From: Candidatus Omnitrophota bacterium
GTDB taxonomy: Bacteria > Omnitrophota > Gorgyraeia > Zapsychrales > Fredricksoniimonadaceae
Assembly: GCA_903959815.1 (NCBI GenBank)
Contig: CAJBYM010000028.1
Coordinates: 1 to 32,992, forward strand
Reading direction: 5' to 3'
DNA length: 32,992 bases
Shown: positions 10,897 through 28,129 of the stretch, piece after piece
How the letters are laid out: each line of letters starts with the position of its first letter
How positions within the stretch are numbered: the first letter of the stretch is position 1
Made by a program: the position numbers and the translations under genes
Notes under the pieces: model-generated
The model's input: only the letters and a program-made list of their open reading frames with translations
The model's database searches: none
Told to the model about the DNA's origin: nothing

Positions 10897-12333
10897 CTAC
10901 TTTTTCTTATTCACCCAATAATTGTGCACGCCTTCAGCAGCCGCACGACCCTCGTTGATCGCCCACACGACCAAAGACTGGCCGCGCGTCATATCTCCTG
11001 CGGTAAAAACACCGCTGACACTTGTCATTTTATTCGCATCTGCCTTCACATTGCTGCGTCCGTCGAGTTCAACACCGAACTTTTCCAAAAGCCCGGCCTT
11101 AACAGGCCCCAAAAACCCGAGCGCAAGAAAAACCAGATCACATTCTACATCAAACTCAGAACCTGCGATCTCTTTCATTCTGGCGCGAGCGGTTGCCGGG
11201 TCTTTTTCAGACCAATCCAGGCGAACGGCATGAAGTTTCTTTAACAGGCCATTCTCACCTGTAAATTTTTTTGTCGAAATGCTGTAATCCCGCTCACACC
11301 CCTCTTCATGCGACGTTGCGGTGCGATAAACCAGCGCCCACTGCGGCCAGGGATTATCCCCGGCACGCTCCTGCGGCGGCTTTGGCATCAGTTCAAATTG
11401 TTTCACCGATACGGCTCCTTGACGATTCGCCGTTCCGACACAATCGGCACCGGTATCACCGCCACCAAGAACCACAACACGCTTACCTTTCGCATTGATC
11501 TCAATCTTAGGATCTATCTTGGCCCCCAGCACCCTGCGTGTCTGCTGCGAGAGATAATCCATGGCAAAATACACCCCTTTTAATTCACGACCCGGGATCG
11601 GGATATCCCGCGGCTGCTCTGCCCCGCCGCAAAGGACCACGGCATCAAACTGCTTTTTCAATTCATTGGGATCAATATCCACGCCGACATTTACGCTGGT
11701 CTTAAAAACAACCCCTTCTTCTTCCATGCGCTTGACGCGGCGCTCAACGATTTCTTTCTCAAGCTTATAATTCGGAATACCCAGCGTTAAAAGGCCTCCG
11801 ACATATTCATTCTTCTCGTAAACCGTAACCTTATGGCCCTTCTTGTTCAGCTGATCCGCACACGCGAGACCCGAGGGTCCCGAGCCCACAACCGCAACCT
11901 TCATCCCCGAGCGGACCTTGGGCGGCTCAGCTTTAAGAACACCATCCGCATAGGCACGCTCAATGATCGCAAGTTCAATGTTCTTGATCGTGACCGCGGG
12001 ATTATTGATCGACAACGTGCAGGAATTCTCACACGGCGCCGGACATATGCGACCCGTAAATTCAGGAAAGTTATTCGTTTTATGCAATCGGTCGATCGCA
12101 TCTTTCCACTGCCCCTTGTAAACGAGATCATTCCATGACGGAATAATATTGCCAATAGGGCACCCCCATTGACAAAAAGGAATGCCGCAATCCATGCAAC
12201 GCGCACCCTGTTGCTGGAGATCAACCTCAGGCGGAAGCGCCGTGAACTCATCCCAATGCTTCAAACGTTCATCCACCGGCTGCTTCGTATAATCCTGGCG
12301 CGAATATTTTAGAAACCCTTTGGGCTCACCCAT
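10897..12333 (-). CDS. gltD: Glutamate synthase small subunit (NADPH-type GltD)
   Basis: GltD oxidises NAD(P)H and feeds electrons to GltB for reductive transfer of the glutamine amide to 2-oxoglutarate. The 478-residue length is typical. N-terminal cysteine motifs (ARCMDCGIPFCQWGCP at about 42-57 and CPAPCENSC near 97-105) hold two [4Fe-4S] clusters in this family. The FAD-binding Rossmann motif VAVVGSGPSGLACAD lies near 146-160 and the NAD(P)H motif VVVLGGGDTGADCVG near 286-300. A final FAD-contacting GVFTAGDMTRGQSLVVWAI segment is near 444. It starts 14 nt after gltB, forming the usual gltBD pair. Confidence 0.97.
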   Translation of the reverse strand: MGEPKGFLKYSRQDYTKQPVDERLKHWDEFTALPPEVDLQQQGARCMDCGIPFCQWGCPIGNIIPSWNDLVYKGQWKDAIDRLHKTNNFPEFTGRICPAPCENSCTLSINNPAVTIKNIELAIIERAYADGVLKAEPPKVRSGMKVAVVGSGPSGLACADQLNKKGHKVTVYEKNEYVGGLLTLGIPNYKLEKEIVERRVKRMEEEGVVFKTSVNVGVDIDPNELKKQFDAVVLCGGAEQPRDIPIPGRELKGVYFAMDYLSQQTRRVLGAKIDPKIEINAKGKRVVVLGGGDTGADCVGTANRQGAVSVKQFELMPKPPQERAGDNPWPQWALVYRTATSHEEGCERDYSISTKKFTGENGLLKKLHAVRLDWSEKDPATARARMKEIAGSEFDVECDLVFLALGFLGPVKAGLLEKFGVELDGRSNVKADANKMTSVSGVFTAGDMTRGQSLVVWAINEGRAAAEGVHNYWVNKKK

Positions 12334-12347
12334 GTGTTCCGGACCTC

Positions 12348-15300
12348 TTATGCTTTAGCCTGTACGGCTTTTTGATTTTCTTCAATCACACGACGATAAT
12401 CCCGCGGATAGATCTTCACGAACTGCGGCAAGAGCTGATCCCAATGATCCAGGATATGCTGCGCAAGCGCGCTTTGGGTATAGGTCCCATGACTCTTGAT
12501 CATAGCTTTTAATTCCAGAACATCCGCCTCTTCCTTAACAGGAAAAAGATCCACCATGCCCATATTGCAGCGCTCTTTAGCAAACGTGGCATCCTTATCC
12601 CAGATATAGGCGATCCCGCCCGACATACCCGCTGCAAAATTACGGCCCGTCGGACCCAGAACAACCACGCGGCCGCCGGTCATATACTCACACCCATGAT
12701 CGCCCACGCCTTCAACCACGGCATGCACACCTGAATTCCGAACCGCAAAACGCTCGCCGGCAACACCACGGAAATACGCTTCACCGCAAATACCGCCGTA
12801 AAGCACAACATTCCCGACAAGAATATTATCTTCTGCCACCAAAGATGATGCCCGTGACGGATACACGATGATCCGCCCGCCGGAAATACCCTTGCCGACA
12901 TAATCATTCCCATCCCCTTCAAGTTCAAAGATAACCCCGCGGGAAAGAAAAGCACCAAAACTCTGCCCCGCAGAACCATTGAACTTGATATGAATGGTGC
13001 CTTCAGGCAAACCGACCATGCCATACTTGCGCGCAATGGTAGAACTTAACATGGTTCCGACGGTACGATTAATATTGCTGATCGAAGATGCAAAGGCAAC
13101 CGGCGTCTTCTTTTCGATCGCATCCTTGCATTTCACAATAAGCGCATTATCCAAAGCCTTTTCAAGGCCATGCTCCTGCTTCAAACAATGATGGATCGGC
13201 ACATGCGCCGGCACATTCGGGCGATGAAGGATATTGGTCAAATCCAGGCCCTTCAGCTTCCAGTGATCAATGACATCGTGTGCTTCAAGCATGTCCACGC
13301 GGCCGATCATCTCGTCGAATGTCTTAAAACCAAGCTCCGCCATGACCTCACGGACCTCTTCGGCTACAAATGTAAAGAAATTGACCACATCCTCCGGCTT
13401 GCCACGGAAATTTTTACGCAGCCTCGGATCCTGTGTTGCAATACCCACAGAACAGGCATCAAGGTGACATTTGCGCAACATGACACAACCCATTGTAACC
13501 AGCGCTATCGTCGAGAACCCGAACTCATCTGCTCCAAGCATGGCCGCAATAGCGACATCGCGCCCGGTCTTCAGTGTTCCGTCCGTCTGAACACGGATAC
13601 GCCCGCGCAGATCGTTCATGACCAAAACCTGCTGCGTTTCGGCAATGCCCAGTTCCATCGGAAGACCAGCGTGCTTGATCGATGTTTGCGGACTTGCGCC
13701 GGTACCGCCCTCATAACCAGAAATTAATAAATGGTCAGACTTTCCTTTTGACACGCCGGCGGCGATCGTTCCCACGCCGATCTCGGAAACAAGTTTCACA
13801 CTCACATCCGCTTGTGGATTCGCATTCTTCAGATCATGGATGAGCTGCGCAAGATCTTCGATCGAATAAATATCATGGTGCGGCGGCGGCGAAATGAGCT
13901 GAACACCCGGCGTCGTTCCACGCGTACCCGCTATCTCCTTAGTAACCTTGTGACCCGGAAGCTGTCCGCCTTCGCCAGGCTTAGCGCCTTGCGCCATCTT
14001 GATCTGCATCTGATCAGCATTCACAAGATATTCAATATTAACGCCGAAACGTCCCTGGGCCACCTGCTTGATACGGCTGCGCTTGCTGTCGCCATTAGCC
14101 TCAAGTTTAAATCTGGCCGGATCTTCACCGCCTTCACCCGTATTGGAAAAACCACCCAGACGGTTCATGGCAATGCCGAGGGTTTCATGCGCTTCTCGGG
14201 AGATCGAACCATAGCTCATCGCCCCCGTGGCAAAACGCTTAACGATCGCTGACACCGGTTCAACATCTGACAAAGGAAGAGCTTTTCCCTTTTTAAATTT
14301 CATAAGCCCGCGGATATTCGCCACAGCCTTATCATTCTCATTCACAAGCTGAGCGTATTTCTTATAAAGCTTATAATCGCCGGTCCGTACCGCATGCTGC
14401 AATGTCGCAATGATCTCAGGATTGATCTGATGATATTCCCCGTCCTTACGCCAGTGATACCAACCGCCCTCATCTAAAAGATCCTGGGTATGCGCAACTT
14501 CGGGATAGGCCGCGCCATAACGCCGCAAGGTTTCTTCCGCCACCGTCTTAATGTCAATGCCACCGATACGTGACGGTGTCGCGGTAAAATATTTGTTCAC
14601 AAGCTCTTCACCCAAACCAATGGCCTCAAAGATCTGTGCGCCGCAATAAGATTGGATCGTCGAGATCCCCATCTTGGAAATGATCTTGAACAGACCCTTA
14701 CGGATGGACTTAATATAATTTTTCTGCGCATGTTCAAGATCAAGACCTGGAAGATAATTACCCTTTTTAAGTTCGCTCTCAATCGTCTCCAGCGCAAGAT
14801 ATGGATTAACCGCATTGCCGCCAAAACCGATAAGGGCCGCAAAATGATGCATTTCACGTGCCTCACCGGTCTCGATAACGATCGAAACCCGGGTGCGCGT
14901 TCCCTGACGGATCAAATGATGATGAACTCCCGCACAGGCCAACAAAGCCGGGATCGGAACATTCTTGTCATTGGTGCCTCGATCAGACAAGACCAAAATG
15001 GTGCATCCCTCTGCCACCGCCTTGTCCACGCGGATAAAAAGTGCATCCATCGCCTTATCCAAGCCATCAACACCTTCAGACTTCTTGAATAAAATGGGAA
15101 GTGTCACGGCTTTAAGATACGGCCGGTCAATATGACTGATCTTTTCAAGTTCTTTATTGGTGAGGATCGGACGATCCAGCTTCAAGCGACGCGCATGGGC
15201 CGGCGTCTCAGCTAAAATATTAGATTCAAACCCGAGGTAAATATTTTCCGCCATGACCACTTCCTCGCGGATAGCATCGACCGGCGGATTCGTGACCTGG

Positions 15301-16871
15301 GCAAAGAGCTGATGAAAATAATTGTACAAAAGTTGCGGCCTCGTCGATAAGAACGCAACAGGGTTATCCGCCCCCATGGAACCGGTTGCCTCTTCCGCAT
15401 TCTCAACCATAGGCTTAAGAATGATCTTGAGATCTTCCTGTGTATAACCAAAAACACGTTGCCGCTCAACTAACGTTTTAATATTAAGCCCCGCAACCTT
15501 CTCCGGCTCCGGAAGATCTTTAAGACCAACAATATTCTCTTTCAGCCATTGACCGTACGGCTGTTTACGCGCATAGGAATCCTTGATCTCTTTATCATCA
15601 ATGATGCGGCCCTCTTTTGTATCAACCAGGAACATTTTCCCGGGCTGCAAACGACCCTTCTGGATCACACGCTCAGGTTCAATGGGTAAAACCCCGGTCT
15701 CGGACGCCATGACCACAAGTCCATCTTTGGTAATCGTATAGCGCGATGGACGTAATCCGTTGCGGTCAAGCAATGCGCCAATATATCGCCCGTCGGTAAA
15801 TGCAATGCACGCCGGACCATCCCACGGCTCCATCAAACATGCATGGTATTCATAAAATGCCCGCTTCTCGGCACTGATCGTATCATCCCCCACCCAAGCC
15901 TCAGGGACCATCATCATGATCGCGTGCGGTAAAGAGCGGCCAGCGATCACTAAAAGTTCAAGGGCATTATCAAAAGACGCCGAGTCACTTCCAAAGGGGC
16001 CGATGATCGGATAGATCTTCTTCACATCATTGCCAAAAAGTTCATGGGCCATCTGTTTCTCGCGCGCACGCATCCAATTCAAATTGCCACGCAAGGTATT
16101 GATCTCGCCATTATGCGCCAGCATCCGGTAAGGATGAGCCAGTGACCAGGTCGGAAACGTATTGGTGCTATAACGGGAATGGACCAGAGCCAATGCAGAG
16201 GTCATGTCCACATCAGAAAGATCCCTGAAGAACGGCCCCAGCTGTTCGGCCATAAGCTGGCCTTTATACACGATCGTCTTGGACGATAAACTGCACACAT
16301 AAAAAAGACTGCGGTGATGAATGGTCGACAAATGGACCTTGGTCCAGCAGCGTTTACGCAAAACATAAAGCCTGCGCTCAAAATCCTCCGGCTTCGTCGT
16401 GGCACCGCGACCGATAAATAACTGCCTAAGCTCCGGCTGGACAGAACGCGCAACATGACCAACGTGCTTCTCATCATAAGGAATATTACGCCAGCCTAAG
16501 AACCGCTGACCTTCCTCATGGATGATCTGCTCGACCCAACCCTCGACAATATTGCGCGACTGAAGTTCATTAGGGAGAAACACATTCCCGCAGGCATAAT
16601 CACCCTCAGGCGGAAGCTCGATCCCCTGCGAAGACGTCACTTTACGCAAAAACTTATCCGGCATCTGGATCATGATCCCCGCGCCGTCACCCGTCAAAGG
16701 ATCACATCCGCACGCACCGCGATGCGCAAGATTTTCCAGGATCTTGATCCCCTGACCAACGATCTCATGCGATTTGCGGCCTTTGATATCAACGACAAAA
16801 CCAACGCCGCAAGCATCATGCTCAAAGCGTGGATCATACAGGCCCTGTTTAGGCGGTAACCCGTGACTCAT
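12348..16871 (-). CDS. gltB: Glutamate synthase large subunit
   Basis: GltB makes two glutamates from glutamine and 2-oxoglutarate, completing the GS-GOGAT ammonia-assimilation cycle with the glnN product. At 1507 residues it is full length. Catalytic Cys21 (HDACGVGFV) follows a short propeptide, and a class II amidotransferase domain covers about 21-430. A central domain precedes the FMN-binding TIM barrel (about 850-1240), which contains GEGGEDPARFK and GAKPGEGGQLPGHKV. The [3Fe-4S] cysteines are in MGCVMLRKCHLDACSVGIATQ. A C-terminal beta-helix domain has repeated glycine-rich turns. The ATG has GGAG nine bases upstream, and a probable promoter lies in the preceding gap. Confidence 0.98.
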   Translation of the reverse strand: MSHGLPPKQGLYDPRFEHDACGVGFVVDIKGRKSHEIVGQGIKILENLAHRGACGCDPLTGDGAGIMIQMPDKFLRKVTSSQGIELPPEGDYACGNVFLPNELQSRNIVEGWVEQIIHEEGQRFLGWRNIPYDEKHVGHVARSVQPELRQLFIGRGATTKPEDFERRLYVLRKRCWTKVHLSTIHHRSLFYVCSLSSKTIVYKGQLMAEQLGPFFRDLSDVDMTSALALVHSRYSTNTFPTWSLAHPYRMLAHNGEINTLRGNLNWMRAREKQMAHELFGNDVKKIYPIIGPFGSDSASFDNALELLVIAGRSLPHAIMMMVPEAWVGDDTISAEKRAFYEYHACLMEPWDGPACIAFTDGRYIGALLDRNGLRPSRYTITKDGLVVMASETGVLPIEPERVIQKGRLQPGKMFLVDTKEGRIIDDKEIKDSYARKQPYGQWLKENIVGLKDLPEPEKVAGLNIKTLVERQRVFGYTQEDLKIILKPMVENAEEATGSMGADNPVAFLSTRPQLLYNYFHQLFAQVTNPPVDAIREEVVMAENIYLGFESNILAETPAHARRLKLDRPILTNKELEKISHIDRPYLKAVTLPILFKKSEGVDGLDKAMDALFIRVDKAVAEGCTILVLSDRGTNDKNVPIPALLACAGVHHHLIRQGTRTRVSIVIETGEAREMHHFAALIGFGGNAVNPYLALETIESELKKGNYLPGLDLEHAQKNYIKSIRKGLFKIISKMGISTIQSYCGAQIFEAIGLGEELVNKYFTATPSRIGGIDIKTVAEETLRRYGAAYPEVAHTQDLLDEGGWYHWRKDGEYHQINPEIIATLQHAVRTGDYKLYKKYAQLVNENDKAVANIRGLMKFKKGKALPLSDVEPVSAIVKRFATGAMSYGSISREAHETLGIAMNRLGGFSNTGEGGEDPARFKLEANGDSKRSRIKQVAQGRFGVNIEYLVNADQMQIKMAQGAKPGEGGQLPGHKVTKEIAGTRGTTPGVQLISPPPHHDIYSIEDLAQLIHDLKNANPQADVSVKLVSEIGVGTIAAGVSKGKSDHLLISGYEGGTGASPQTSIKHAGLPMELGIAETQQVLVMNDLRGRIRVQTDGTLKTGRDVAIAAMLGADEFGFSTIALVTMGCVMLRKCHLDACSVGIATQDPRLRKNFRGKPEDVVNFFTFVAEEVREVMAELGFKTFDEMIGRVDMLEAHDVIDHWKLKGLDLTNILHRPNVPAHVPIHHCLKQEHGLEKALDNALIVKCKDAIEKKTPVAFASSISNINRTVGTMLSSTIARKYGMVGLPEGTIHIKFNGSAGQSFGAFLSRGVIFELEGDGNDYVGKGISGGRIIVYPSRASSLVAEDNILVGNVVLYGGICGEAYFRGVAGERFAVRNSGVHAVVEGVGDHGCEYMTGGRVVVLGPTGRNFAAGMSGGIAYIWDKDATFAKERCNMGMVDLFPVKEEADVLELKAMIKSHGTYTQSALAQHILDHWDQLLPQFVKIYPRDYRRVIEENQKAVQAKA

Positions 16872-16895
16872 GTTGCTACTCCAGGAACTTATTTT

Positions 16896-16926
16896 ATTAT
16901 ATTTTATATAAGGAAGGCTCTGTCGA
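16896..16926 (-). promoter_or_regulatory. Possible promoter of gltB
   Basis: On the minus strand TCGACA (16926-16921) and TATAAT (16901-16896) are separated by 19 bases, longer than optimal. Transcription would begin about 18 nt before the gltB ATG, leaving a very short leader. The stretch is extremely A/T-rich, so the -10 could be fortuitous. No ANTAR-type double hairpin was found here. Confidence 0.4.
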
Positions 16927-16969
16927 GGAACAGCGAACTTCCACAGTTAAAGAAGCCGGTATTTTAATG

Positions 16970-16987
16970 GCATTCTTTTTAGAATGC
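16970..16987. repeat. Perfect inverted repeat between the glycosyltransferase gene and gltB
   Basis: GCATTCT and AGAATGC flank a four-base loop, giving a 7-bp perfect stem 20 nt after the glycosyltransferase stop codon. On the minus strand the sequence after the stem is CATTAAAAT, which is not a T-run, so a Rho-independent terminator is not well supported. It may mark a processed transcript end. Confidence 0.45.
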
Positions 16988-17006
16988 AATCAAAAAATCG
17001 ACCCCG

Positions 17007-17699
17007 TCAATTCCAGAATCTAAACCGGATGATCGCGCCGTACATCCCCAACGCTTTGGGCCAGTTGATCTTTTTGCCCTGGGCTTCAGAGCGTGCCTCA
17101 TAAACGATCGGGACTTCCAGGATCCTTAAACCTTTTCTGACCAATTTCGCCGTAACCTCGGTCTCAAACGCAAAATGATCGGAAATGATGGTCAGCCCCT
17201 TGATATCCGCCGCACGAAACAATTTAAAACACGTATTAATGTCCGTGATGTTCTTCCCATAAAGCAACCTGAACGTTATATTCGACACGACATTTGCCCA
17301 ACGGTTAACGCCCTGCATATGACGGATGGTCCCCATAAAGCGCGAACCATACACCACATCCGCCCTGCCTTCCAGAAGCGGATTCAAAAGGCGGGGATAT
17401 TCCGACGGGCTGTATTCCAGATCCGCATCCTGGACCAAAAGAAAATCTCCGCAAGCTTCTCGTATAGCACGACGCAATGCAGACGTCTTGCCCTGATTCG
17501 ACGGCTGATGAAAAATCCTCACTAAAGGATCATTCTTAAAATACTCCAGCACCCGCGCCGTACCATCCGTAGAGCCGTCATTGACCACCACAACTTCACG
17601 CGCCATACCTTCGGGAAGAATAACAGCACACACCGCGGAAACAACTTCAACGACCGTGGCCTCTTCGTTATACACAGGAACAAGGATTGAAAGTTTCAT
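17007..17699 (-). CDS. Family 2 glycosyltransferase (dolichol-phosphate-mannose-synthase-like)
   Basis: The 230-residue protein is a soluble GT-A-fold glycosyltransferase. It opens with LSILVPVYNEEATV, followed by VVNDGSTDGT near 39-48 and the metal-binding DAD in LLVQDADLEYSP near 92-96. These are the hallmarks of enzymes that move a sugar from a nucleotide donor to polyprenyl phosphate. No C-terminal membrane segments are present. Such a product could supply polyprenyl-linked sugar to integral-membrane transferases, for example the TMTC-like protein at 30271-32067, but that link is only an inference. It follows nadE by 4 nt, suggesting co-transcription without metabolic relation. Confidence 0.92.
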   Translation of the reverse strand: MKLSILVPVYNEEATVVEVVSAVCAVILPEGMAREVVVVNDGSTDGTARVLEYFKNDPLVRIFHQPSNQGKTSALRRAIREACGDFLLVQDADLEYSPSEYPRLLNPLLEGRADVVYGSRFMGTIRHMQGVNRWANVVSNITFRLLYGKNITDINTCFKLFRAADIKGLTIISDHFAFETEVTAKLVRKGLRILEVPIVYEARSEAQGKKINWPKALGMYGAIIRFRFWN

Positions 17700-17703
17700 G
17701 GTT

Positions 17704-19380
17704 CTAAGAAGCCTTATACCGATTGGTCAGCGGCAGACGCCAATCCTTGCCAAAAGCGCGCTTGGTGATCTTCACACCAGGTGGTGCCTGACGACGTTTA
17801 TACTCACTTTTATCCACAAGGTCCATGACACGACGGACGGTATCCGCACTGGCTTTCTTACCCACGATCTCATCCAAAGAGCGGTGTTCCTCAACATAAG
17901 AAACCAAAATATCATCAAGAACAGGATACGGTGGCAAAGAATCCTGATCTTTTTGATTAAACCTCAGCTCCGCCGATGGCGCACGCTTGATCACAGAACG
18001 CGGGATCACGTTCAACCCCGCCTTCGCATTCACATACTCGGAAAGCTCATAAACCTTGGTCTTGAAAATATCCTTGATGACCGCATAGCCGCCCGACATA
18101 TCTCCGTAAAGCGTACAATACCCGGTCGCCATCTCGCTCTTATTGCCCGTCGTCAAAACGAGCCAGCCAAATTTGTTGGAAAATGCCATGAGAAAATTAC
18201 CGCGGATGCGCGCTTGCAAATTCTCTTCAGCAAGGCCGAACGGAATGCCTTGATTATAAGGCTTAAAAACTGCCAGAAAAGATTCAAAGACCGGCTCAAT
18301 AGGGATCTCATAAAATGTGATCCCAAGATTATGCGCAAGCCGGCGCGCATCTGATTTGGTATCTTCCGCGTTATAGCGTGTGGGCATGGATATCCCCACA
18401 ACATTCGCCCGGCCGATCGCATCAACCGCCATGGCGGCCACCAAGGAGGAATCGATCCCCCCGCTTAATCCGATCACAACCTTCTTAAACCCATTTTTCA
18501 TGATGTAATCCCGCGTACCCAGCACGGTCGCGGCATAAATTTCGTCGATAAGCGGCAAAGGTTTTACATTATTCTTACGCAACATCGGCTTATTCACAAC
18601 AGGGTCCATCTTGATCACAACCGCTTTAGCCGCGCGCTTTTTCGCAACCGGCACATCATAAACGAGCAAATCTTCCTTAAACTGCGCGCCACGCGCAACG
18701 ATCTTACCCGACGGATCAACAACCACGCTGCCACCATCAAAAACCAGTTCATCCTGGCCACCCACAAGATTCACATACCCAACATGCGCCTTGGTCAATC
18801 GCGCGATACGGGCGATCGTCTTTTCCCGTTCAGCGATCTTGCCCGCCTCATACGGCGAACTCGAAATATTCACAATCAACTTTGCACCCGCCTTGGCCTG
18901 CTTAAGATAAACACCATCAGGAACCCAGATATCTTCGCAAATATTAACCGCAAACGGAATGCCATTCTGACTGAACAGTTTGAAATCATCACCCGGTGTG
19001 AAATATCGCTTCTCGTCGAAAACACTGTAATTCGGAAGTGCATGCTTGCGGTAAATGCCCATGATCTTGCCATGGGCGATCACGGCGGCGGCATTATAAA
19101 GCTCTCCGTCCTTGCCGCGGTCAACAAAACCCACGATCGCCGTGATCCCTTCGACCCGCCGTGCAATATCATTAAGGACAGCGATATTGCTGGTAATGAA
19201 ATGTTTCTTGAACAGAAGATCTTCGGGCGGATAACCCGTGACCGCCATCTCAGGAAGAGCAACAATGCCAGCGCCAGCGCGACGCGCCCTGTCACAATAA
19301 GCAAGGATCCAATCGCGGTTACCATGAAGGTCACCAACGGTCGTGTTGATCTGGGCTAAAGCTATACGAAGAGTATTCAT
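17704..19380 (-). CDS. nadE: Glutamine-dependent NAD+ synthetase
   Basis: NadE amidates nicotinic acid adenine dinucleotide to NAD+, taking ammonia from glutamine. The 558-residue two-domain form is present. The N-terminal nitrilase-type glutaminase (about 1-245) has the triad Glu44 (LPEMAVTGY), Lys112 (YRKHALPNY) and Cys148 (NICEDIW). The C-terminal synthetase (about 280-558) has the pyrophosphatase loop GLSGGIDSS at 304-312 and the TGNKSEMATGYCTLYGDMSGG segment from about 411. It starts one base after the stop of the upstream glutamine amidotransferase gene (TAATATG), which implies translational coupling. It uses a fourth, unrelated way to hydrolyse glutamine within this neighbourhood. Confidence 0.97.
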   Translation of the reverse strand: MNTLRIALAQINTTVGDLHGNRDWILAYCDRARRAGAGIVALPEMAVTGYPPEDLLFKKHFITSNIAVLNDIARRVEGITAIVGFVDRGKDGELYNAAAVIAHGKIMGIYRKHALPNYSVFDEKRYFTPGDDFKLFSQNGIPFAVNICEDIWVPDGVYLKQAKAGAKLIVNISSSPYEAGKIAEREKTIARIARLTKAHVGYVNLVGGQDELVFDGGSVVVDPSGKIVARGAQFKEDLLVYDVPVAKKRAAKAVVIKMDPVVNKPMLRKNNVKPLPLIDEIYAATVLGTRDYIMKNGFKKVVIGLSGGIDSSLVAAMAVDAIGRANVVGISMPTRYNAEDTKSDARRLAHNLGITFYEIPIEPVFESFLAVFKPYNQGIPFGLAEENLQARIRGNFLMAFSNKFGWLVLTTGNKSEMATGYCTLYGDMSGGYAVIKDIFKTKVYELSEYVNAKAGLNVIPRSVIKRAPSAELRFNQKDQDSLPPYPVLDDILVSYVEEHRSLDEIVGKKASADTVRRVMDLVDKSEYKRRQAPPGVKITKRAFGKDWRLPLTNRYKAS

Positions 19381-19381
19381 A

Positions 19382-20074
19382 TTATTTCTTATTAATAATC
19401 TTCAAAAAATTCCCGCAAAGGATCTGGCTTCTGTGCGTAAAACCATCCTTAACATCCTGATAACGCTTGAGCATGGCCTCGCGTTGCGCCTGTTTCTCGG
19501 GCTCATACTTACACGACCAGGCCGCAATGCTCTGATCTGTGATCTCCGCATGAAACTGTAAGCCATACGCCCTGGTGCCAACTCGAAATGCCTGGACTGG
19601 ACAACGCTCTGAGACTGCAAGGTGCACACCATCCGCCGGAACAACACACATATCACCGTGCCATTGGTACACTTCCATGACCGCCGGCAATCCTGTGAAC
19701 AGCGGATCTGTGACACCATGCGAACGCAACATGATATCAAACCAGCCGATCTCCGGCTGAGGCGAACGCACGACCATACCGCCCGCCGCCTTGGCCAAAA
19801 GCTGAGACCCAAGACAAATGCCCAAGAATGGCACATTTTCTTTAAGGACATTCTTTAAAAAAACATCTTCATCCTTAAGAAAGGGGTATTTCTCTTCTTC
19901 ATAAACGTTCATCGGCCCGCCCAGACTTACAACCGCATCCACATCCTGAAGATCCACGGGAAGCCGAGCGCCACGATGCAAATCGACCAGAGAAAGATCA
20001 AATCCGTGCTTTTCAAAAAAAGACCCCAGAGCTTCAGGGCCTTCGATATCAACATGTTTGATGAACAAAATCAT
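19382..20074 (-). CDS. Class I glutamine amidotransferase-like protein
   Basis: This stand-alone GATase of about 230 residues resembles the GuaA-N-like/YfeJ-type family of unknown substrate. With the start chosen here, nucleophile Cys87 lies in LGICLGSQLLA, and the His175/Glu177 pair in LQFHAEIT completes the triad. An upstream GTG (20095) is in frame. I prefer ATG 20074 because AGGGA lies seven bases before it and because a TATAAT at 20102-20097 would start transcription near 20090, inside the longer version. The synthase partner that would receive ammonia is not obvious. NadE immediately follows but has its own glutaminase. It could instead act on gamma-glutamyl compounds. Confidence 0.92.
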   Translation of the reverse strand: MILFIKHVDIEGPEALGSFFEKHGFDLSLVDLHRGARLPVDLQDVDAVVSLGGPMNVYEEEKYPFLKDEDVFLKNVLKENVPFLGICLGSQLLAKAAGGMVVRSPQPEIGWFDIMLRSHGVTDPLFTGLPAVMEVYQWHGDMCVVPADGVHLAVSERCPVQAFRVGTRAYGLQFHAEITDQSIAAWSCKYEPEKQAQREAMLKRYQDVKDGFTHRSQILCGNFLKIINKK

Positions 20075-20096
20075 ACCATAATCCCTGAATTTCACA

Positions 20097-20203: not shown

Positions 20204-22315
20204 TTAGATCATGAACAGCATCTCAGCATACGACGGAACAGGCCACAATTCCTTAGCCACCAAACCTTCAAGCGTATCAATGGTCTTGCGGAGCGTTCCC
20301 ATCAGCTTACGCTTCTCAAGCCCAGGCTTACCATCCTTGATCGCCTGCTCAAGTGCTTCAACCTCTTCAAGCGCCTTATCATTAAGGGCAGAGATCGTTG
20401 CCAGCGTCTTTTTAACAGACGCCGTCTTAACCTCAACACCCTCAACCGACTTGACCGTGCGCGCAAGCTCATTCATCTGCGCGGCGACCGACGGAAGATA
20501 CATCGTGCGGACCATATCAACCGCAAGCGCGGCTTCATAACTCAGAACGCCTTCATATGCTTCCTTGTAGATCTCATAACGGGAAGCCAATTCCTTGCGC
20601 GACAATACGCTATATTTCTCAAAGAGATCCGCTGCCTTCTTGGTATTGAACGCCTCCAACGCCTGCGGCGTGGTGCGATTATTCGGCAACCCACGTTTCT
20701 CGGCTTCTTTCACCCAATCTTCCGTGTAATTATCGCCATTGAAGATCACGCGCTTGTGCTTCTTGATAATATCCTGCAACAGCTTCTGAACAGACTGATT
20801 GAAGTCCTTCTTCGCCTTCTTATCCGCCTCAAGCCGGGTGCAGATCTCATCGATCGCCTCGGCAATGATCGTATTAAGAGCGACGTTCGGCCCGCCCAGC
20901 GAGAAATTAGAACCCACGGCACGGAACTCAAACTTGGACCCCGTAAACGCGAACGGAGACGTGCGATTGCGGTCAGAGGAATCACGCGGGATAATAGGCA
21001 ATGAATCAACGCCCACATGAAGCAAACCACCCTGCTTCGTATTCTTCAGATCACCCTTCTCGATCTGATCAATGATATCATTGAGCTGATCTCCCAAGAA
21101 AACGGAAACGATCGCCGGAGGCGCCTCATGCGACCCCAAACGATGATCATTGCCCGCCGAAGCGACGGTTGCACGCAAAATATCCGCATGCGTATCCACC
21201 GCCTTGATGACCGCAGCCAGCGTCACAAGAAATTTAGCATTTTCATGCGGGTTATCACCCGGAGAAAGCCAGTTCTTGCCATCCGGACCGACCACAGACC
21301 AATTGTTATGTTTACCAGAACCATTGATCCCCTTAAACGGCTTCTCATGGAGCAAACACACAAACCCGTGTTTCTCGGCGATCCGCTGCATCAGTTCCAT
21401 GGTCAACATATTGTGATCGACCGCAATATTGAGCTCTTCAAAAACGGGCGCGATCTCATACTGAGCCGGTGCAACTTCGTTATGGCGCGTCTTGGCCGGA
21501 ATGCCCACTTTCCAAAGTTCACGATCAAGCTCTTCCATGAACTCAACGATGCGGGTCTTAATAGCACCAAAATAATGATCTGCCATCTGCTGGTGCTTAG
21601 CCGGTTCCTTGCCGAAAAGCGTACGGCCCGTCTGCACAAGGTCAATGCGGCGATGATAAAATTCACGGTCGATCAGGAAATACTCCTGTTCACCGCCCAA
21701 TGTCGCAAAAGAACGCTTGCCCTGCGTCGAAATGCCAAACAATTCAGCCAAACGATTGACCTGTGTATTAAGGGCCTTCATGGAGCGCAACAACGGAGTT
21801 TTCTTATCCAGCGCTTCACCGTTCCAACCCACAAAGAATGTCGGGATACAAAGCACCGCACCCTGACTCGTGGTCTTGATGAACGCAGGACTGCTAGGAT
21901 CCCAGCCAGTATAACCACGGGCTTCAAACGTTGCACGTAAACCACCTGAGGGGAACGAAGAGGCATCGGGTTCACCCTGGATCAACTGTTTGGCGCTGAA
22001 ATCCATCACAAACCCGGTGGGTGAAAAGTCCAAAAAGGCTTCCTGTTTCTCAGCCGTGATACCGGTCAAAGGCTGGAACCAATGGCAATAATGCGTGGCG
22101 CCTTTTTCCAAAGCCCATTCATGCATCTTTTCCGCAACTTCCTGCGCCACTGCGGAATCAAGTTTGCCGCCGGTTCTGATAGTATTTTCAATGGATTTGT
22201 ACGCTTTAGGGGAAAGACGCTTGGCCATGACTTTCAGACCAAACGCATTGTCACCAAAGGTGTTAGCGATAAGATTATTAGCTGCAACTTTCTTGGATAC
22301 TGCTTTCTTTGCCAT
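20204..22315 (-). CDS. glnN: Glutamine synthetase type III
   Basis: GlnN makes glutamine from glutamate, ammonia and ATP and is the primary ammonia-capturing enzyme of this locus. The 703-residue length is diagnostic of GSIII (GSI is about 470). Recognisable segments include LGGEQEYFLID (metal-binding glutamates, about 206-216), KPFKGINGSGKHNNWSV (about 325-341), RLGSHEAPPAIVSVFLG (about 392-408) and NRTSPFAFTGSKFEFRAVGS from about 449. The C-terminal 200 residues are the helical region typical of type III. AAAGGAG lies about 10 nt before the ATG. The gene has a consensus promoter, an ANTAR-type leader and its own terminator, so it appears to be a separately controlled single-gene unit. The GAF-GAF-ANTAR regulator is directly upstream. 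Confidence 0.98.
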   Translation of the reverse strand: MAKKAVSKKVAANNLIANTFGDNAFGLKVMAKRLSPKAYKSIENTIRTGGKLDSAVAQEVAEKMHEWALEKGATHYCHWFQPLTGITAEKQEAFLDFSPTGFVMDFSAKQLIQGEPDASSFPSGGLRATFEARGYTGWDPSSPAFIKTTSQGAVLCIPTFFVGWNGEALDKKTPLLRSMKALNTQVNRLAELFGISTQGKRSFATLGGEQEYFLIDREFYHRRIDLVQTGRTLFGKEPAKHQQMADHYFGAIKTRIVEFMEELDRELWKVGIPAKTRHNEVAPAQYEIAPVFEELNIAVDHNMLTMELMQRIAEKHGFVCLLHEKPFKGINGSGKHNNWSVVGPDGKNWLSPGDNPHENAKFLVTLAAVIKAVDTHADILRATVASAGNDHRLGSHEAPPAIVSVFLGDQLNDIIDQIEKGDLKNTKQGGLLHVGVDSLPIIPRDSSDRNRTSPFAFTGSKFEFRAVGSNFSLGGPNVALNTIIAEAIDEICTRLEADKKAKKDFNQSVQKLLQDIIKKHKRVIFNGDNYTEDWVKEAEKRGLPNNRTTPQALEAFNTKKAADLFEKYSVLSRKELASRYEIYKEAYEGVLSYEAALAVDMVRTMYLPSVAAQMNELARTVKSVEGVEVKTASVKKTLATISALNDKALEEVEALEQAIKDGKPGLEKRKLMGTLRKTIDTLEGLVAKELWPVPSYAEMLFMI

Positions 22316-22354: not shown

Positions 22355-22374
22355 GGACTATAAAAGAATAGTCC
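22355..22374 (-). other. Alternative hairpin overlapping the glnN leader terminator
   Basis: GGACTAT and ATAGTCC form a perfect 7-bp stem around the loop TCTTTT. The first four bases of this stem are the last four bases of the terminator's 3' arm, and the loop is the U-tract. The hairpin and the terminator therefore cannot form fully at the same time. It could stabilise the read-through state or merely fold after RNA polymerase has passed. Confidence 0.5.
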
Positions 22375-22406
22375 CCTTCCGGAAACACTTATCTCCAAAA
22401 GAGGAC
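22361..22406 (-). terminator. Leader terminator upstream of glnN
   Basis: On the minus strand the 5' arm GTCCTCTTTTGGAGA (22406-22392) pairs along all 15 positions with TTTCCGGAAGGGGAC (22385-22371), with four G-U pairs, around the six-base loop TAAGTG. TATTCTTTTA follows. This is an intrinsic terminator within the glnN leader, 45 nt before the start codon. Its first five bases are also the 3' arm of the second ANTAR-type hairpin, so the two structures exclude each other. Confidence 0.85.
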
Positions 22407-22453
22407 GCCATTGCCCTGCTTAACTTATAATCATGAAGACCACACTGTCTTCA
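22402..22453 (-). promoter_or_regulatory. ANTAR-type tandem hexaloop RNA target in the glnN leader
   Basis: Hairpin P1 (22453-22434) has the 7-bp stem TGAAGAC/GTCTTCA and the loop AGTGTG. Hairpin P2 (22417-22402) has the 5-bp stem AGGGC/GTCCT and the loop AATGGC. After one C-C mismatch, P2 can extend by three further pairs. Both loops have six bases, with A at position 1 and G at position 4, which is the published signature of RNAs bound by ANTAR domains. The linker is 16 nt or shorter. P2 shares GTCCT with the terminator, so protein binding to P1-P2 would allow transcription into glnN. The likely binding protein is encoded directly upstream. Function is inferred and the pairing is read directly. 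Confidence 0.8.
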
Positions 22454-22463
22454 AACTTTGCAA

Positions 22464-22492
22464 AGTATACCGTGAGACGATTTCTTTGTCAA
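22464..22492 (-). promoter_or_regulatory. Consensus sigma-70 promoter of glnN
   Basis: TTGACA (22492-22487), a 17-base spacer and TATACT (22469-22464) make a near-perfect promoter on the minus strand. It begins two bases after the stop codon of the ANTAR gene. The start point would be near 22457, just before the P1 hairpin, giving a leader of about 140 nt. A strong constitutive-looking promoter in front of a conditional terminator is what antitermination control requires. Confidence 0.92.
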
Positions 22493-22494
22493 TT

Positions 22495-23724
22495 CTAAAC
22501 TTTACCGATATTCTGTATGTCCACCAACAACAAAATAGACTCCGCGATCTCTTTCATGCTCTTGCAACTGTCCATGCTCTTCTTGTGAATAATACGATGC
22601 GCAGCCTCTTCGGACAAATTCTGCATCTTCATGAGCGCACCTTTGGCCCGTTCGACCAATTTCCGGGTTTCCAGCGCTTCTCGCGCTTTCAAAGACTCTT
22701 CCATAAGCTTCGTATTCTCGACGGCAACAGCCGCCTGGTTCGCGACCATCTGCAAAACACCGATCTCATCTTGTGAAAAAGAATGCGGTTCTTTGGTATA
22801 AACATTAATGACGCCAACAGCCCGGTCCTTAACGATCATGGGGACCGCAAGCATGGAGGTCAGCCCTTCCTTAACCGCAAGTTCACGGTAGAAATAACGT
22901 TTCTCACGGCGAACATCTTCAATCGATATGGACGTGCGGGTCTTGACAACTTCACCCATCAAACTGGTATCTACGCGCAAATTCGGCTTCTTTTTATAAT
23001 CATCACTCAAACTTTGGGTGGCCTTAATCACCAGCTCCTGACCTTTGGGATCCAAAAGCATGATCGAACAGATCTTCGAATTGAGCATTTCCGCTGTCAC
23101 AACCACGATAAGGCTTAAGATCTCATCCAGATATTTCTCGGACGTAATGGTCTGGCTCACTTTGACCAACGTATCAAATTGCAGTGCTTTAGCATGCGTC
23201 TCGCCATAAAGCCGTGTGTGTTCGATCACCCCACCCACCTGGCGCGCGATCATGGCCAAAAGTTCAATGGCATTGACCGGATACTCATGCACCTTCTTAT
23301 GTTGGAGGTTAATAACACCAATGGCCTTACCTTTATATACAATGGGCAAGGCAACAAACGCTTCATATTTATCTTCAGGAAGAACTTCGAATGCCTTAAA
23401 GCGGGGATCCTGGTAGGCATTCTCTTTAATAACAACAGGTTTATTGTTCTTGGCGGCCCAACCCGTCAAACCTTCTCCCACCTTGAGCAAAACCTTACCA
23501 AGCTCTTTCTTATGGGCTGTCTTAGAGGCACGCAAAACCAGATGCTTCTTGTCACCATCAAACAAATAAATGAACACAGAATCCGCATTGGCAATGTCGG
23601 TCACGATCTTAACGATCTCGCTTAAGACGCCGTCGACATCAAGCTCGGAGGTCGTAATATCAACAACCTTGCGTAAAACCTTCAATTCAGCGGCTGTGGA
23701 AAAACTTGTTTTATTCTTAGGCAT
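22495..23724 (-). CDS. GAF-GAF-ANTAR antitermination regulator
   Basis: This 409-residue protein has two GAF sensor domains (about 28-170 and 185-338) and a short coiled linker. The C-terminal ANTAR RNA-binding domain (about 346-402) has the hallmark RKLVERAKGALMKMQNLSEE and the later MKEIAESIL. ANTAR proteins bind pairs of hexaloop hairpins and prevent terminator formation. There is no receiver domain, so activation is probably by a ligand or redox signal at a GAF domain rather than phosphorylation. An in-frame GTG at 23760 would add 12 residues. ATG 23724 is preferred because AAGGAT lies eight bases upstream while the GTG has no ribosome site. Next to glnN, its target is probably the hairpin pair at 22402-22453. 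Confidence 0.93.
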   Translation of the reverse strand: MPKNKTSFSTAAELKVLRKVVDITTSELDVDGVLSEIVKIVTDIANADSVFIYLFDGDKKHLVLRASKTAHKKELGKVLLKVGEGLTGWAAKNNKPVVIKENAYQDPRFKAFEVLPEDKYEAFVALPIVYKGKAIGVINLQHKKVHEYPVNAIELLAMIARQVGGVIEHTRLYGETHAKALQFDTLVKVSQTITSEKYLDEILSLIVVVTAEMLNSKICSIMLLDPKGQELVIKATQSLSDDYKKKPNLRVDTSLMGEVVKTRTSISIEDVRREKRYFYRELAVKEGLTSMLAVPMIVKDRAVGVINVYTKEPHSFSQDEIGVLQMVANQAAVAVENTKLMEESLKAREALETRKLVERAKGALMKMQNLSEEAAHRIIHKKSMDSCKSMKEIAESILLLVDIQNIGKV

Positions 23725-23750: not shown

Positions 23751-23778
23751 AGTCTAGCACGAAAATTTAAAAGCGCAA
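23751..23778 (-). promoter_or_regulatory. Weak promoter candidate for the ANTAR gene
   Basis: On the minus strand TTGCGC (23778-23773), a 16-base spacer and TAGACT (23756-23751) preceded by TGC suggest an extended -10 promoter. The start point would lie about 20 nt before the ATG at 23724, which supports that ATG over the GTG at 23760. Matches are only partial. Confidence 0.3.
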
Positions 23779-23789
23779 AAATATTCGCA

Positions 23790-23963
23790 TCAGGAGGCTA
23801 AGAAAGCAGAAACCCCTCGGATCGGGACAATGATATTGATCACAGGCCTAAGATTGCCCATATCATTCACATCCATACTCTCAGCCCCGTCAAGGATCTC
23901 AAATCGTGTCCCTGAACCCGTGGTCTGAACATTCATATTCTTTGCCGTCAGATCAATGCCTCC
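23790..23963 (-). other. C-terminal tail (GGIDL...PVINI), copy 1
   Basis: The last 57 residues of the large protein begin GGIDLTAKNMNVQ and end PVINIIVPIRGVSAFLAS. The same order of motifs (GGIDL, a short hydrophobic alternating segment, a D-x-A-E segment, PVI-x-I-x-P) closes the otherwise different protein at 32255-32992. The pattern suggests a small beta-rich C-terminal module carried by exported proteins. Its function is unknown. Confidence 0.65.
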
Positions 23964-26900
23964 GGCATGCTCACCTTCATCCAAACCAATGAGCTTCTGT
24001 ACAACAAGAAAATCCTTTCCATTAGATTCTTTCACAATAAGCACGCCCTGCTTGATCGCCCCTTCTAATTTTGCTGCAAACTTTCTAAGCGCATCTGGCG
24101 TTGCTTCCGGGAAATTAGGATCTTTACGAATAGCATCGCCAACCCACGTATGCCGCCAAAATGTAATGTGCGAAGCAGAAAGAACGGCCTGGGCCACCAC
24201 ATCATCATCTATCGCCTGAAAAAGATTCGCATATCGAAATTCATAATTGACCTTGCCTTTCCATTGGGGATATTTCTGTCTCACAACACGCGCCAAATGA
24301 TCAAGCTGATTAGAATATTTTGCCAAAGAAAGCAAGCTCTGCTCATAAATAACGAAAGTTACATCCGTTTTTTTCCCATACCGTGCATCCGCAATGATCA
24401 CAGCTTTTACTGTCGTCTCAAATTCGGTGTCACCCTCTTCAGAGGCCGTGCCTGCAGATAAAAGCCCACCGCCACCATAAGTCATCACAAGAATACGTTT
24501 AATATCACGGGCAACCAACCCATCAACGCCGTTTCTCAATACGGCCACCTCATCAAAATTCAATCCAAAATTCTTAGAAGGATTGGCTATCGCCCGCTGA
24601 TTAACCGCCTCTTGTACAACATAGGCCAATATATCTTCTGGCAAATTAATATAATGGCTAAACCATTCAATCAGTTGACTGCGACTGATACACCAGCCCC
24701 CAGTTGCAAAGATTGTTTTAAAGTAATGCCCCGCCAGCTCACGTAATCGAAGCATATTATCCTGTCCCCATCGTGGGATATTCTTGGCCTTAAAAAAAGG
24801 ATGCAAATAAACTTTATCCGGTGCATCCTCCGGCTTACGACTCTCCTCGATCCACCACTTTAAAGCAGCGAGACCATTTCGCTTCGTTTGACCGTCCTTA
24901 ACAACCAATTGGAAATCTTTAAACCCACTTTGTTCACTCCAGATCCGGCCCATAGCACTATTAGCTAAAAGATCTGAAAGCATGACCTGATAAGACGCCA
25001 ATGAACGACGGTCCTTTTCTCCAAAACGATCAAACTGATCATCCATAACCTCGATCTGCTCACCATCCACCTGAATAAAAATACGGTCTCCTTGCAAATC
25101 AAAATCATGCGTCAACTCCTCACGCGTTGTCTTATCAAAAACATACGCTTCAATGTCGACGCCTTCAGGAATAGCTCGACTTAAGATCTTATGAAAAGCT
25201 TTTCCAAGCCCTCCGCCTCGCAGATCTAATGGACCGTCGTCCAGATCTCTTTCAAAGATCACCCCTTTAAAATTCTCCTTTAACTCGCCCAATAAATCTT
25301 TTTCAGGATATACATCAAACAGCGCAACATAATCATTGCTCACAATACCCTGGGCATTCTTAAGAAAAACCTTAATTCTATCGCCATCCTCAATCACCGC
25401 ATGATGAACCGCGACAAAAGAATATTCCTCACCAGTCTTACCATGAATAATGCCCTGACTCAAAGCATTGATCTTATCAATAATAAGCTGGGTATTAAGT
25501 CGCGATGACGCCATCTCTTCACCCTTATCCAAACGTTCGACCTGCTGGGCGAATTCATCAAACGTTTGTTTAAAATCCTGCCATGTGATATCCGCGAAAC
25601 CTGGATCATCTTGACCCTGTTCCGCTTTCAAGAACTCTCTGTAAAAAAGCCTTAATGGTTTCTGCCCGACCATCAATTCAGGCTCTCCCTCGGCGATCAA
25701 GGCATCGTAAACCAGGGCATAACCTTCGATCAGACGATGAACAACACGTTCTTTGGACCCTATTTCCTGACTTCCTAGAAAGAAAAAGTCGGCCTCCTTC
25801 TGCCCTGCGTTAATCAACTGCCGGGCTAACACAAGCCTTTCACGCAACACTAAAGATGGCAAACCAAGGTCTTTGGCTTGACCTTTTAAGAAGACACCGC
25901 TCACATCCACGATCTGCTTGACCACAACAGCCCCCATTGCGCCTGTTTGAAGCCCTTTGATCAGCGTCTGCTGATCTACAATGTTTGCATCGATACCATC
26001 CCGTTTTAAACTCAAATGAGCTGCTCCTTGTGTCACAACAAGAACATCATGATCTTGGGGCGAACGACCCCAAACCGTACTGCCGAAAAGAACAACAGGC
26101 GCATGTTCAAGGTCTCCGGGCAATAAAGAGATCTGTTTTTTCTTATCACTCTTCTTTAAATAATGCCTCATCTCATCCAGGAAACGACTTTTCAAAACAC
26201 GCTCCAAACGCGTGCGTATAACAGCCACCGCTTCAGGATCATCTTTAACAAATCCCCATAAAGGGCTATGGCCTTGTTCAAGTTCTGCCATGATCTGATC
26301 AACCGTCTTATCTTCATTCTCAGAGTAATCCAACCCCTCGACCAGATCCGTCTGTGTTGTGTCAACACGATGCATCACAGCAAACATGTCAATGGGGTCT
26401 ATATTCCAGATCTTCTCTTGCCCATCAGCCATTCGCGCCCATAAGAAATTTAAATAGTGTGCTTCGTCCGTCAAACTAAGAACCGGCGCATTCCCGTTCC
26501 TGTCCGCCATGCCCTCACCCATAACAGCATCAACGGCATCAAAGAAAACTTCAGCGATCTGCTGCAGATCTTCGCGGCTACGAAAAGTTTTCCCGCGACG
26601 CAATACTTTCTCAAATAAATACCCGTCTTTCTTTTCCGTTACAAAAGCAAGCCCCCCATGCTCTATCCGCACCAATGTGGGCACAACGATTTCAACAGGC
26701 CCCTGATATCCACTCTCTTTCAGTTTTTGAGGCAAACTTTTAATGATCTCGTACATCATCCTCATATGCTCTTCCCGCAAGCCCTTAAGCTTGAATACCT
26801 TTAAAACCCGCTTCCCGTCTTTGGAAATGTATATCTTGCTTTGTCCTGCTCTGAAATTCGGCCAAAACCAGGTCCTCCACTCTTTCATATTCACGACGGG

Positions 26901-28046: not shown

Positions 28047-28129
28047 AATATTGGACACCAAACTATATATAAGTATTTACTATAAAAGGGGTAAAAACAA
28101 GAGGTTGACTGATACTGCAGTTGATCGGA

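Follow-up and report, generated by a model that had tools for sequence, protein, structure and literature searches.

What decides whether glnN, the gene for a type III glutamine synthetase (GSIII), is transcribed in this bacterium? The gene lies on the minus strand of the 32,992-nt stretch of DNA analysed here (the window), behind a gene for a protein with two GAF domains and one ANTAR domain. A first-pass annotation, which had also guessed the host clade, Omnitrophota, correctly, proposed that this protein controls glnN. Based on sequence comparison, the glnN leader is very probably an ANTAR-controlled transcription antitermination switch, read by the adjoining, upstream-encoded GAF-GAF-ANTAR protein.

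Two alternative folds of the glnN leader

The leader consists of the following parts.

22487..22492, minus: -35 hexamer TTGACA
22464..22469, minus: -10 hexamer TATACT, with a 17-nt spacer to the -35 hexamer
22434..22453, minus: P1 hairpin TGAAGAC-AGTGTG-GTCTTCA, 7 bp, hexaloop with A1/G4
Between P1 and P2: linker of 16 nt
22402..22417, minus: P2 hairpin AGGGC-AATGGC-GTCCT, the antiterminator, 5 bp, hexaloop with A1/G4
22371..22406, minus: intrinsic terminator GTCCTCTTTTGGAGAT-AAGT-GTTTCCGGAAGGGGAC, 16 pairs including G-U, tetraloop AAGT
22361..22370, minus: U-rich tract TATTCTTTTA, directly 3' of the terminator

The promoter matches the consensus at 11 of 12 positions and was the top scorer in a 12-kb scan; the ANTAR reading frame ends two bases ahead of it, with its stop codon at 22497-22495. 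Transcription would be expected to start near 22457, directly ahead of P1. The 3' arm of P2 forms the first five bases of the terminator. All of this agrees with the first-pass description of a consensus promoter two bases behind the GAF-GAF-ANTAR gene, two A1/G4 hexaloop hairpins (AGTGTG and AATGGC) and five shared bases. The terminator and its U-rich tract are also as described, except that the stem has 16 pairs, G-U counted, rather than 15 bp.

Set-structure energies were -8.4 kcal/mol for P1, -5.6 kcal/mol for P2 and -22.8 kcal/mol for the terminator. In the growing RNA, P1 and P2 constitute the minimum-energy fold until the 3' arm of the terminator is complete, and the terminator then wins. 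By the 5-nt overlap, the energies and these co-transcriptional folds, P2 and the intrinsic terminator are mutually exclusive in silico. Moreover, the minus-strand folding of the leader was bettered by only 1 of 200 shuffles (z -3.75), and no matching structure was seen in the plus-strand folding of this region. A scan of the whole window found a single triple of P1, P2 and a strong terminator, at the glnN leader. When the window was shuffled 60 times with its dinucleotides preserved, the triple appeared on neither strand, which excludes a chance origin of the arrangement.

We infer RNA binding, antitermination, the direction of control and the ligands as follows. RNA polymerase would start just ahead of P1, and P1 and P2 would fold as they emerge. 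Without an active regulator, the stronger terminator would take the 3' arm of P2, and transcription would end before glnN. The active GAF-GAF-ANTAR protein would bind the hexaloops, stacking on G4, and hold P2 shut. With P2 held closed, no terminator would form, and polymerase would read through into glnN and probably on to the GOGAT genes. The same protein would act on amtB-glnK. Nitrogen shortage, reported by the GAF domains, would thus lead to ANTAR binding and to synthesis of glutamine synthetase, perhaps together with gltB-gltD.

The genes behind the leader are as follows.

20204..22315, minus: glnN, type III glutamine synthetase, 703 aa (PF12437, PF18318, PF00120)
10897..20095, minus: five genes on the same strand 3' of glnN, from the glutamine amidotransferase to gltD
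19382-20095, minus: glutamine amidotransferase
17704-19380, minus: glutamine-dependent NAD synthase
17007-17699, minus: GT2
12348-16871, minus: gltB
10897-12333, minus: gltD

The five genes may share the glnN transcript; no other strong promoter or terminator was found between glnN and gltB-gltD. On a larger scale, nearly all glutamine-using enzymes (the amidotransferase, the glutamine-dependent NAD synthase, gltB, gltD, carA, carB, purF and pyrG) are clustered on the minus strand behind glnN (160-22315). The ANTAR switch might govern this entire 22-kb cluster. Among the relatives, carA is preceded by an element of its own in G034 and G046.

Conservation of P2 and the terminator, and the variability of P1

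A strict double-hairpin scan missed most of the relatives' leaders because P1 is variable, and scans for P2 and the terminator were used in its place. In a terminator-first test, terminators were selected by stability, U-tract and a G[TC]CC 5' arm only, which yielded 118 terminators from 70 loci. A 4-nt complementary arm was found across exactly six bases in 62 of the 118, whereas each of the other loop lengths from 3 to 12 gave 0 to 4 such arms and the opposite strand gave 0/27 at loop length 6. G4 is present in all 62 of these hexaloops, with A1 in 49 and G1 in 12. Similarly, a P2-first scan without any loop rule returned G4 in 69/70 and A1 in 56/70.

The terminator stem covaries across 43 related elements, with a value of 0.412 compared with 0.200 in shuffles, and none of 500 shuffles reaches 0.412. 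For this stem, the compensatory changes whose absence would, according to the first-pass annotation, have spoken against the switch are hence present. P2 is nearly invariant among the relatives, as expected of a protein-binding hairpin. Its covariation is uninformative, since the core pairs vary too little and pairing was partly a selection criterion. The fifth pair of P2 is found in 33/62 elements across the phylum, against 47% expected, which is no better than chance. Accordingly, the 5-bp P2 hairpin read earlier exists in the window, but the conserved core comprises only four pairs.

P1 behaves differently from P2. Both hairpins are retained with A1/G4 loops (AACGCG, AGCGCG) in the congeners G001 and G004, where P1 shows compensatory changes; the P1 stem of G001 differs from that of the window by two double-sided ones (G-C to A-U and U-A to C-G). 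In the congener G003 and several family members, P2 and the terminator are kept and P1 is degenerate or absent; near relatives in which P1 is degenerate or lost also include L098 and L086. P1 with A1/G4 is thus present in this species, G001 and G004, and is not generally conserved. The loss of P1 in near relatives indicates that P2 alone suffices there or that P1 weighs less than in the canonical model.

These observations bear on how many hexaloops the switch needs. Switching in this Omnitrophota family might require P2 only, with P1 dispensable or auxiliary, a reading to which we give less than even odds. P2 is nearly invariant, an upstream P1 with [A/G]1 and G4 occurs in 26/70 leaders, and the structural study of EutV with its RNA argues that the dimer touches one hexaloop at a time (PMC8934654). 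However, those 26 leaders far exceed the 0.9 expected from shuffles, P1 of the window species is a hairpin of 7 perfect pairs with A1/G4, Enterococcus faecalis needs both hairpins (PMC3369931), and the strict stem rule may have let some P1 hairpins escape. Because some natural leaders have P1 and others lack it, the question of one or two hexaloops is directly testable.

In P1-less leaders (L096 5327, L099 5290, L103 2732, L104 5271 and L111 5269), a further hexaloop with A1/G4 is often seen at the terminator tip. Such A/G hexaloops account for 16 of 25 hexaloop tips and 4 of 16 control tips (p = 0.025), a weak enrichment. Where P1 is missing, the dual motif may consist of P2 and the terminator tip, which we do not claim on this weak basis.

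The GAF-GAF-ANTAR regulator and its signal

The regulator gene and its domains are located as follows.

22495..23724, minus: gene of the GAF-GAF-ANTAR regulator (P0001), ATG start as in orthologues
23203..23685, minus: first GAF domain (GAF1), closest to the GAF of EI-Ntr/PtsP
22696..23184, minus: second GAF domain (GAF2), closest to the GAF of NifA
22531..22689, minus: coding region of the ANTAR RNA-binding domain

The ANTAR domain (PF03861) is recognised with an E-value of 8e-19 and 67.6 bits against a cut-off of 27.3, and the protein is the sole ANTAR protein in the 1.8-Mb genome. The domain search found two GAF domains and ANTAR only, with no receiver domain. Orthologues mostly start at the ATG equivalent to 23724 rather than at an in-frame GTG that lies at 23760. 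A match to the regulator is present in 51/55 relatives; most of these are orthologues with about 58-83% identity over most of the length, and the few remaining ones are short or GAF-only. Almost all of the named records are MAGs of Candidatus Omnitrophota. On the same strand, the ANTAR gene is preceded by a 1423-aa open frame (23790-28061, minus) with no Pfam or NCBIfam match.

To compare the RNA-binding surface with that of EutV, residues were mapped via PDB 6wsh, with an offset of 2 from the published numbering. Arg142, Lys143, Lys149, Glu160 and Met172 of EutV, which contact RNA (PMC8934654), correspond to Arg366, Lys367, Lys373, Glu384 and Met396 of the window protein and are invariant in 17 orthologues. 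In EutV, Tyr164 stacks on loop G4 (PMC8934654); this position is His388 in the window protein and Tyr in most orthologues. Similarly, Arg168 is replaced by His392. These two substitutions, together with the loss of P1 in near relatives and the P2 pairs that do not covary, count against the switch model. The covariation of the terminator, the G4 of every hexaloop in the terminator-first set, the unique regulator and the retained EutV residues support the interpretation that the ANTAR protein controls glnN.

The leaders of the E. faecalis eut genes (PMC3369931, PMC8934654) are built alike, with two A1/G4 hexaloop hairpins and a P2 3' arm common to the intrinsic terminator. In contrast, EutV joins a receiver to its ANTAR domain and is phosphorylated by EutW, while the window protein has two GAF domains and no receiver; the target genes, the 16-nt linker and the two histidines also set the glnN system apart. 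NasR, which acts on the nasF leader of Klebsiella oxytoca (PMC7496416), is likewise a one-component ANTAR antiterminator; it carries a sensor domain of its own and controls nitrogen assimilation through the same RNA motif. It senses nitrate through a NIT domain, whereas the window protein has GAF-GAF.

GAF1 is best matched by the GAF of EI-Ntr (PtsP) (NCBIfam, 5e-35; PDB 3ci6, 2e-18), and GAF2 by that of NifA (2.5e-29). The EI-Ntr GAF is a glutamine sensor (PMC4848567) and the NifA GAF binds 2-oxoglutarate (PMC8219145). These closest named relatives both report nitrogen or carbon/nitrogen status, although their outputs are a PTS enzyme I and an AAA+ activator, respectively; the window GAFs strongly resemble them in sequence. 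The window protein may thus bind glutamine and/or 2-oxoglutarate via GAF1 and GAF2, and nitrogen status, sensed by the two domains through one or both of these ligands, is the most likely signal. Alternatively, the ANTAR switch might answer to redox, light, a cyclic nucleotide or a partner kinase. GAF domains take many ligands, and GAF1 also resembles cyclic-nucleotide GAFs (1ykd, 5w10), more weakly. However, with PtsP and NifA as the best matches and almost all controlled genes being nitrogen genes, we consider a signal other than nitrogen status less likely than not.

The regulon in this genome and across the phylum

A covariance model of P2 and the terminator, trained partly on the 55 relatives, gave two clear matches in the genome of the window, the glnN leader (3e-11) and the leader of amtB (3e-7).

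C81:39992-40051: amtB leader element, 29 nt before amtB, with P2 CGGGC-AATGAC-GCCCG and a terminator ending in GGGC

The P-II gene glnK follows amtB, and the locus is unlinked to glnN. Further matches in this genome (E 0.02 to 0.9) were weak and taken as chance. The idea that the ANTAR system replaces P-II was rejected, as P-II genes are present. The switch proposed for the glnN leader is thus there, but it does not stand alone; it belongs to a regulon comprising amtB-glnK here and many nitrogen genes in relatives.

All 55 relatives have elements at E 0.01 or better, a count that is not fully independent because the model was trained partly on them. Among leaders with a readable next gene, 28 precede GSIII and 28 precede Amt. 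Other next genes are nifH, a nirB-like gene, carA, circularly permuted ATP-grasp genes and putative envelope proteins. In one relative (L166, G043:C12:9516-9572), an element lies ahead of the ANTAR gene itself, and autoregulation is possible there.

Across 193 genomes of the phylum, an ANTAR domain was found in 141 and element matches at 1e-4 in 56, of which 51 have an ANTAR gene (Fisher p = 1e-4). The five element-bearing genomes without one comprise G040, with a truncated orthologue at a contig end, and incomplete or fragmented drafts. Furthermore, 12 genomes that belong to other classes or lineages and contributed no training sequence have the element on the strand of the ANTAR domain and within about 350 nt behind it. 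The ANTAR proteins of these genomes are shorter (about 240 aa); L246, the one looked at in detail, has only one GAF, which resembles PtsP/NifA. The next genes there include glutamate dehydrogenase and, judged by eye with no family match, a glutamate-synthase-like protein.

Two other explanations of the leader are each very improbable. If the terminator merely ended the ANTAR transcript, P1 and P2 lay beside it by chance and glnN were served by read-through or another promoter, the position just after the ANTAR stop codon would be accounted for; a consensus promoter separates the two, however, the same P2/terminator overlap recurs before the unlinked amtB and in 55/55 relatives, and the hexaloop length is fixed along with G4. 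A ligand riboswitch or protein-independent attenuator (a glutamine riboswitch, T-box or leader peptide) could use the same alternative folding, and alternation of antiterminator and terminator is in itself no proof of a protein partner, but the conserved 4-bp hexaloop core is too small for a known aptamer and the elements co-occur with ANTAR genes, often directly 3' of them. Moreover, an Rfam 15 search of the window returned no family at its gathering score, the ANTAR family included; the nearest match in the leader at a relaxed threshold was rli56 (17.3 bits, E 2.4), which is not significant.

An ANTAR-type regulator thus probably runs nitrogen uptake across Omnitrophota. More speculatively, and with clearly less than even confidence, the system might be ancient and phylum-wide, with one GAF-GAF-ANTAR protein jointly reading glutamine (PtsP-like GAF) and 2-oxoglutarate (NifA-like GAF) and setting ammonium uptake, GS-GOGAT, nitrite reduction and N2 fixation by antitermination alone, often via a single essential P2 hexaloop.

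ANTAR nitrogen regulons, glutamine synthetase included, were predicted by Ramesh et al. 2012, with 13 predicted elements in six units of Desulfotomaculum acetoxidans (PMC3369931). As here, these elements precede genes for P-II, Amt, nitrogenase, nitrite reductase and glutamate and glutamine synthase, several per genome. Because the same gene classes were predicted, ANTAR control of glutamine synthetase is not new, and the precedents reach further than the clostridial one for GSIII cited in the first-pass annotation. Unlike the present case, those regulons belong to Actinobacteria, Bacteroidetes, Firmicutes and Proteobacteria, the phyla named in the accompanying commentary, with Omnitrophota not among them; GAF-ANTAR proteins were given as uncharacterised, as were ANTAR proteins of GAF or PAS type in general (PMC3369931). 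Our literature search returned nothing that links Omnitrophota with ANTAR control; for the combination of GAF, ANTAR domain and ammonium transporter, Ramesh et al. was the sole paper found. The mechanism class is thus known from EutV and NasR, while a sensor of GAF type, its occurrence in this phylum and the conserved regulon seem to be undescribed, in line with what had been suggested for the GAF-only version.

These results extend ANTAR antitermination to an uncultured phylum, where it probably acts as a main nitrogen regulator; it is conserved throughout the order and also occurs in other classes. For the GAF-type ANTAR case there are now about 50 orthologues, natural target RNAs by the dozen and a specific hypothesis on the ligands, and the case offers an explanation of how nitrogen assimilation could be regulated in bacteria that are known almost solely from metagenomes.

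Several minor features were observed among the loci. Some leaders carry two to three P2/terminator units in tandem (L099 5290-5440; L138 5330 and 5429; L150 5297-5435), and such repetition would make the response sharper. The element precedes a small sigma-70-region-4-like protein in three genomes of another class (L243, L248 and L251), where an ANTAR-to-sigma-factor cascade is possible. Finally, one and the same ANTAR locus is found on a contig filed under Woesearchaeota and on an Omnitrophota contig (L144 against L145), and ANTAR orthologues occur in bins labelled Elusimicrobia, Planctomycetales and Patescibacteria (L091, L119 and L151); mis-binning or mislabelling is the probable reason for these labels.
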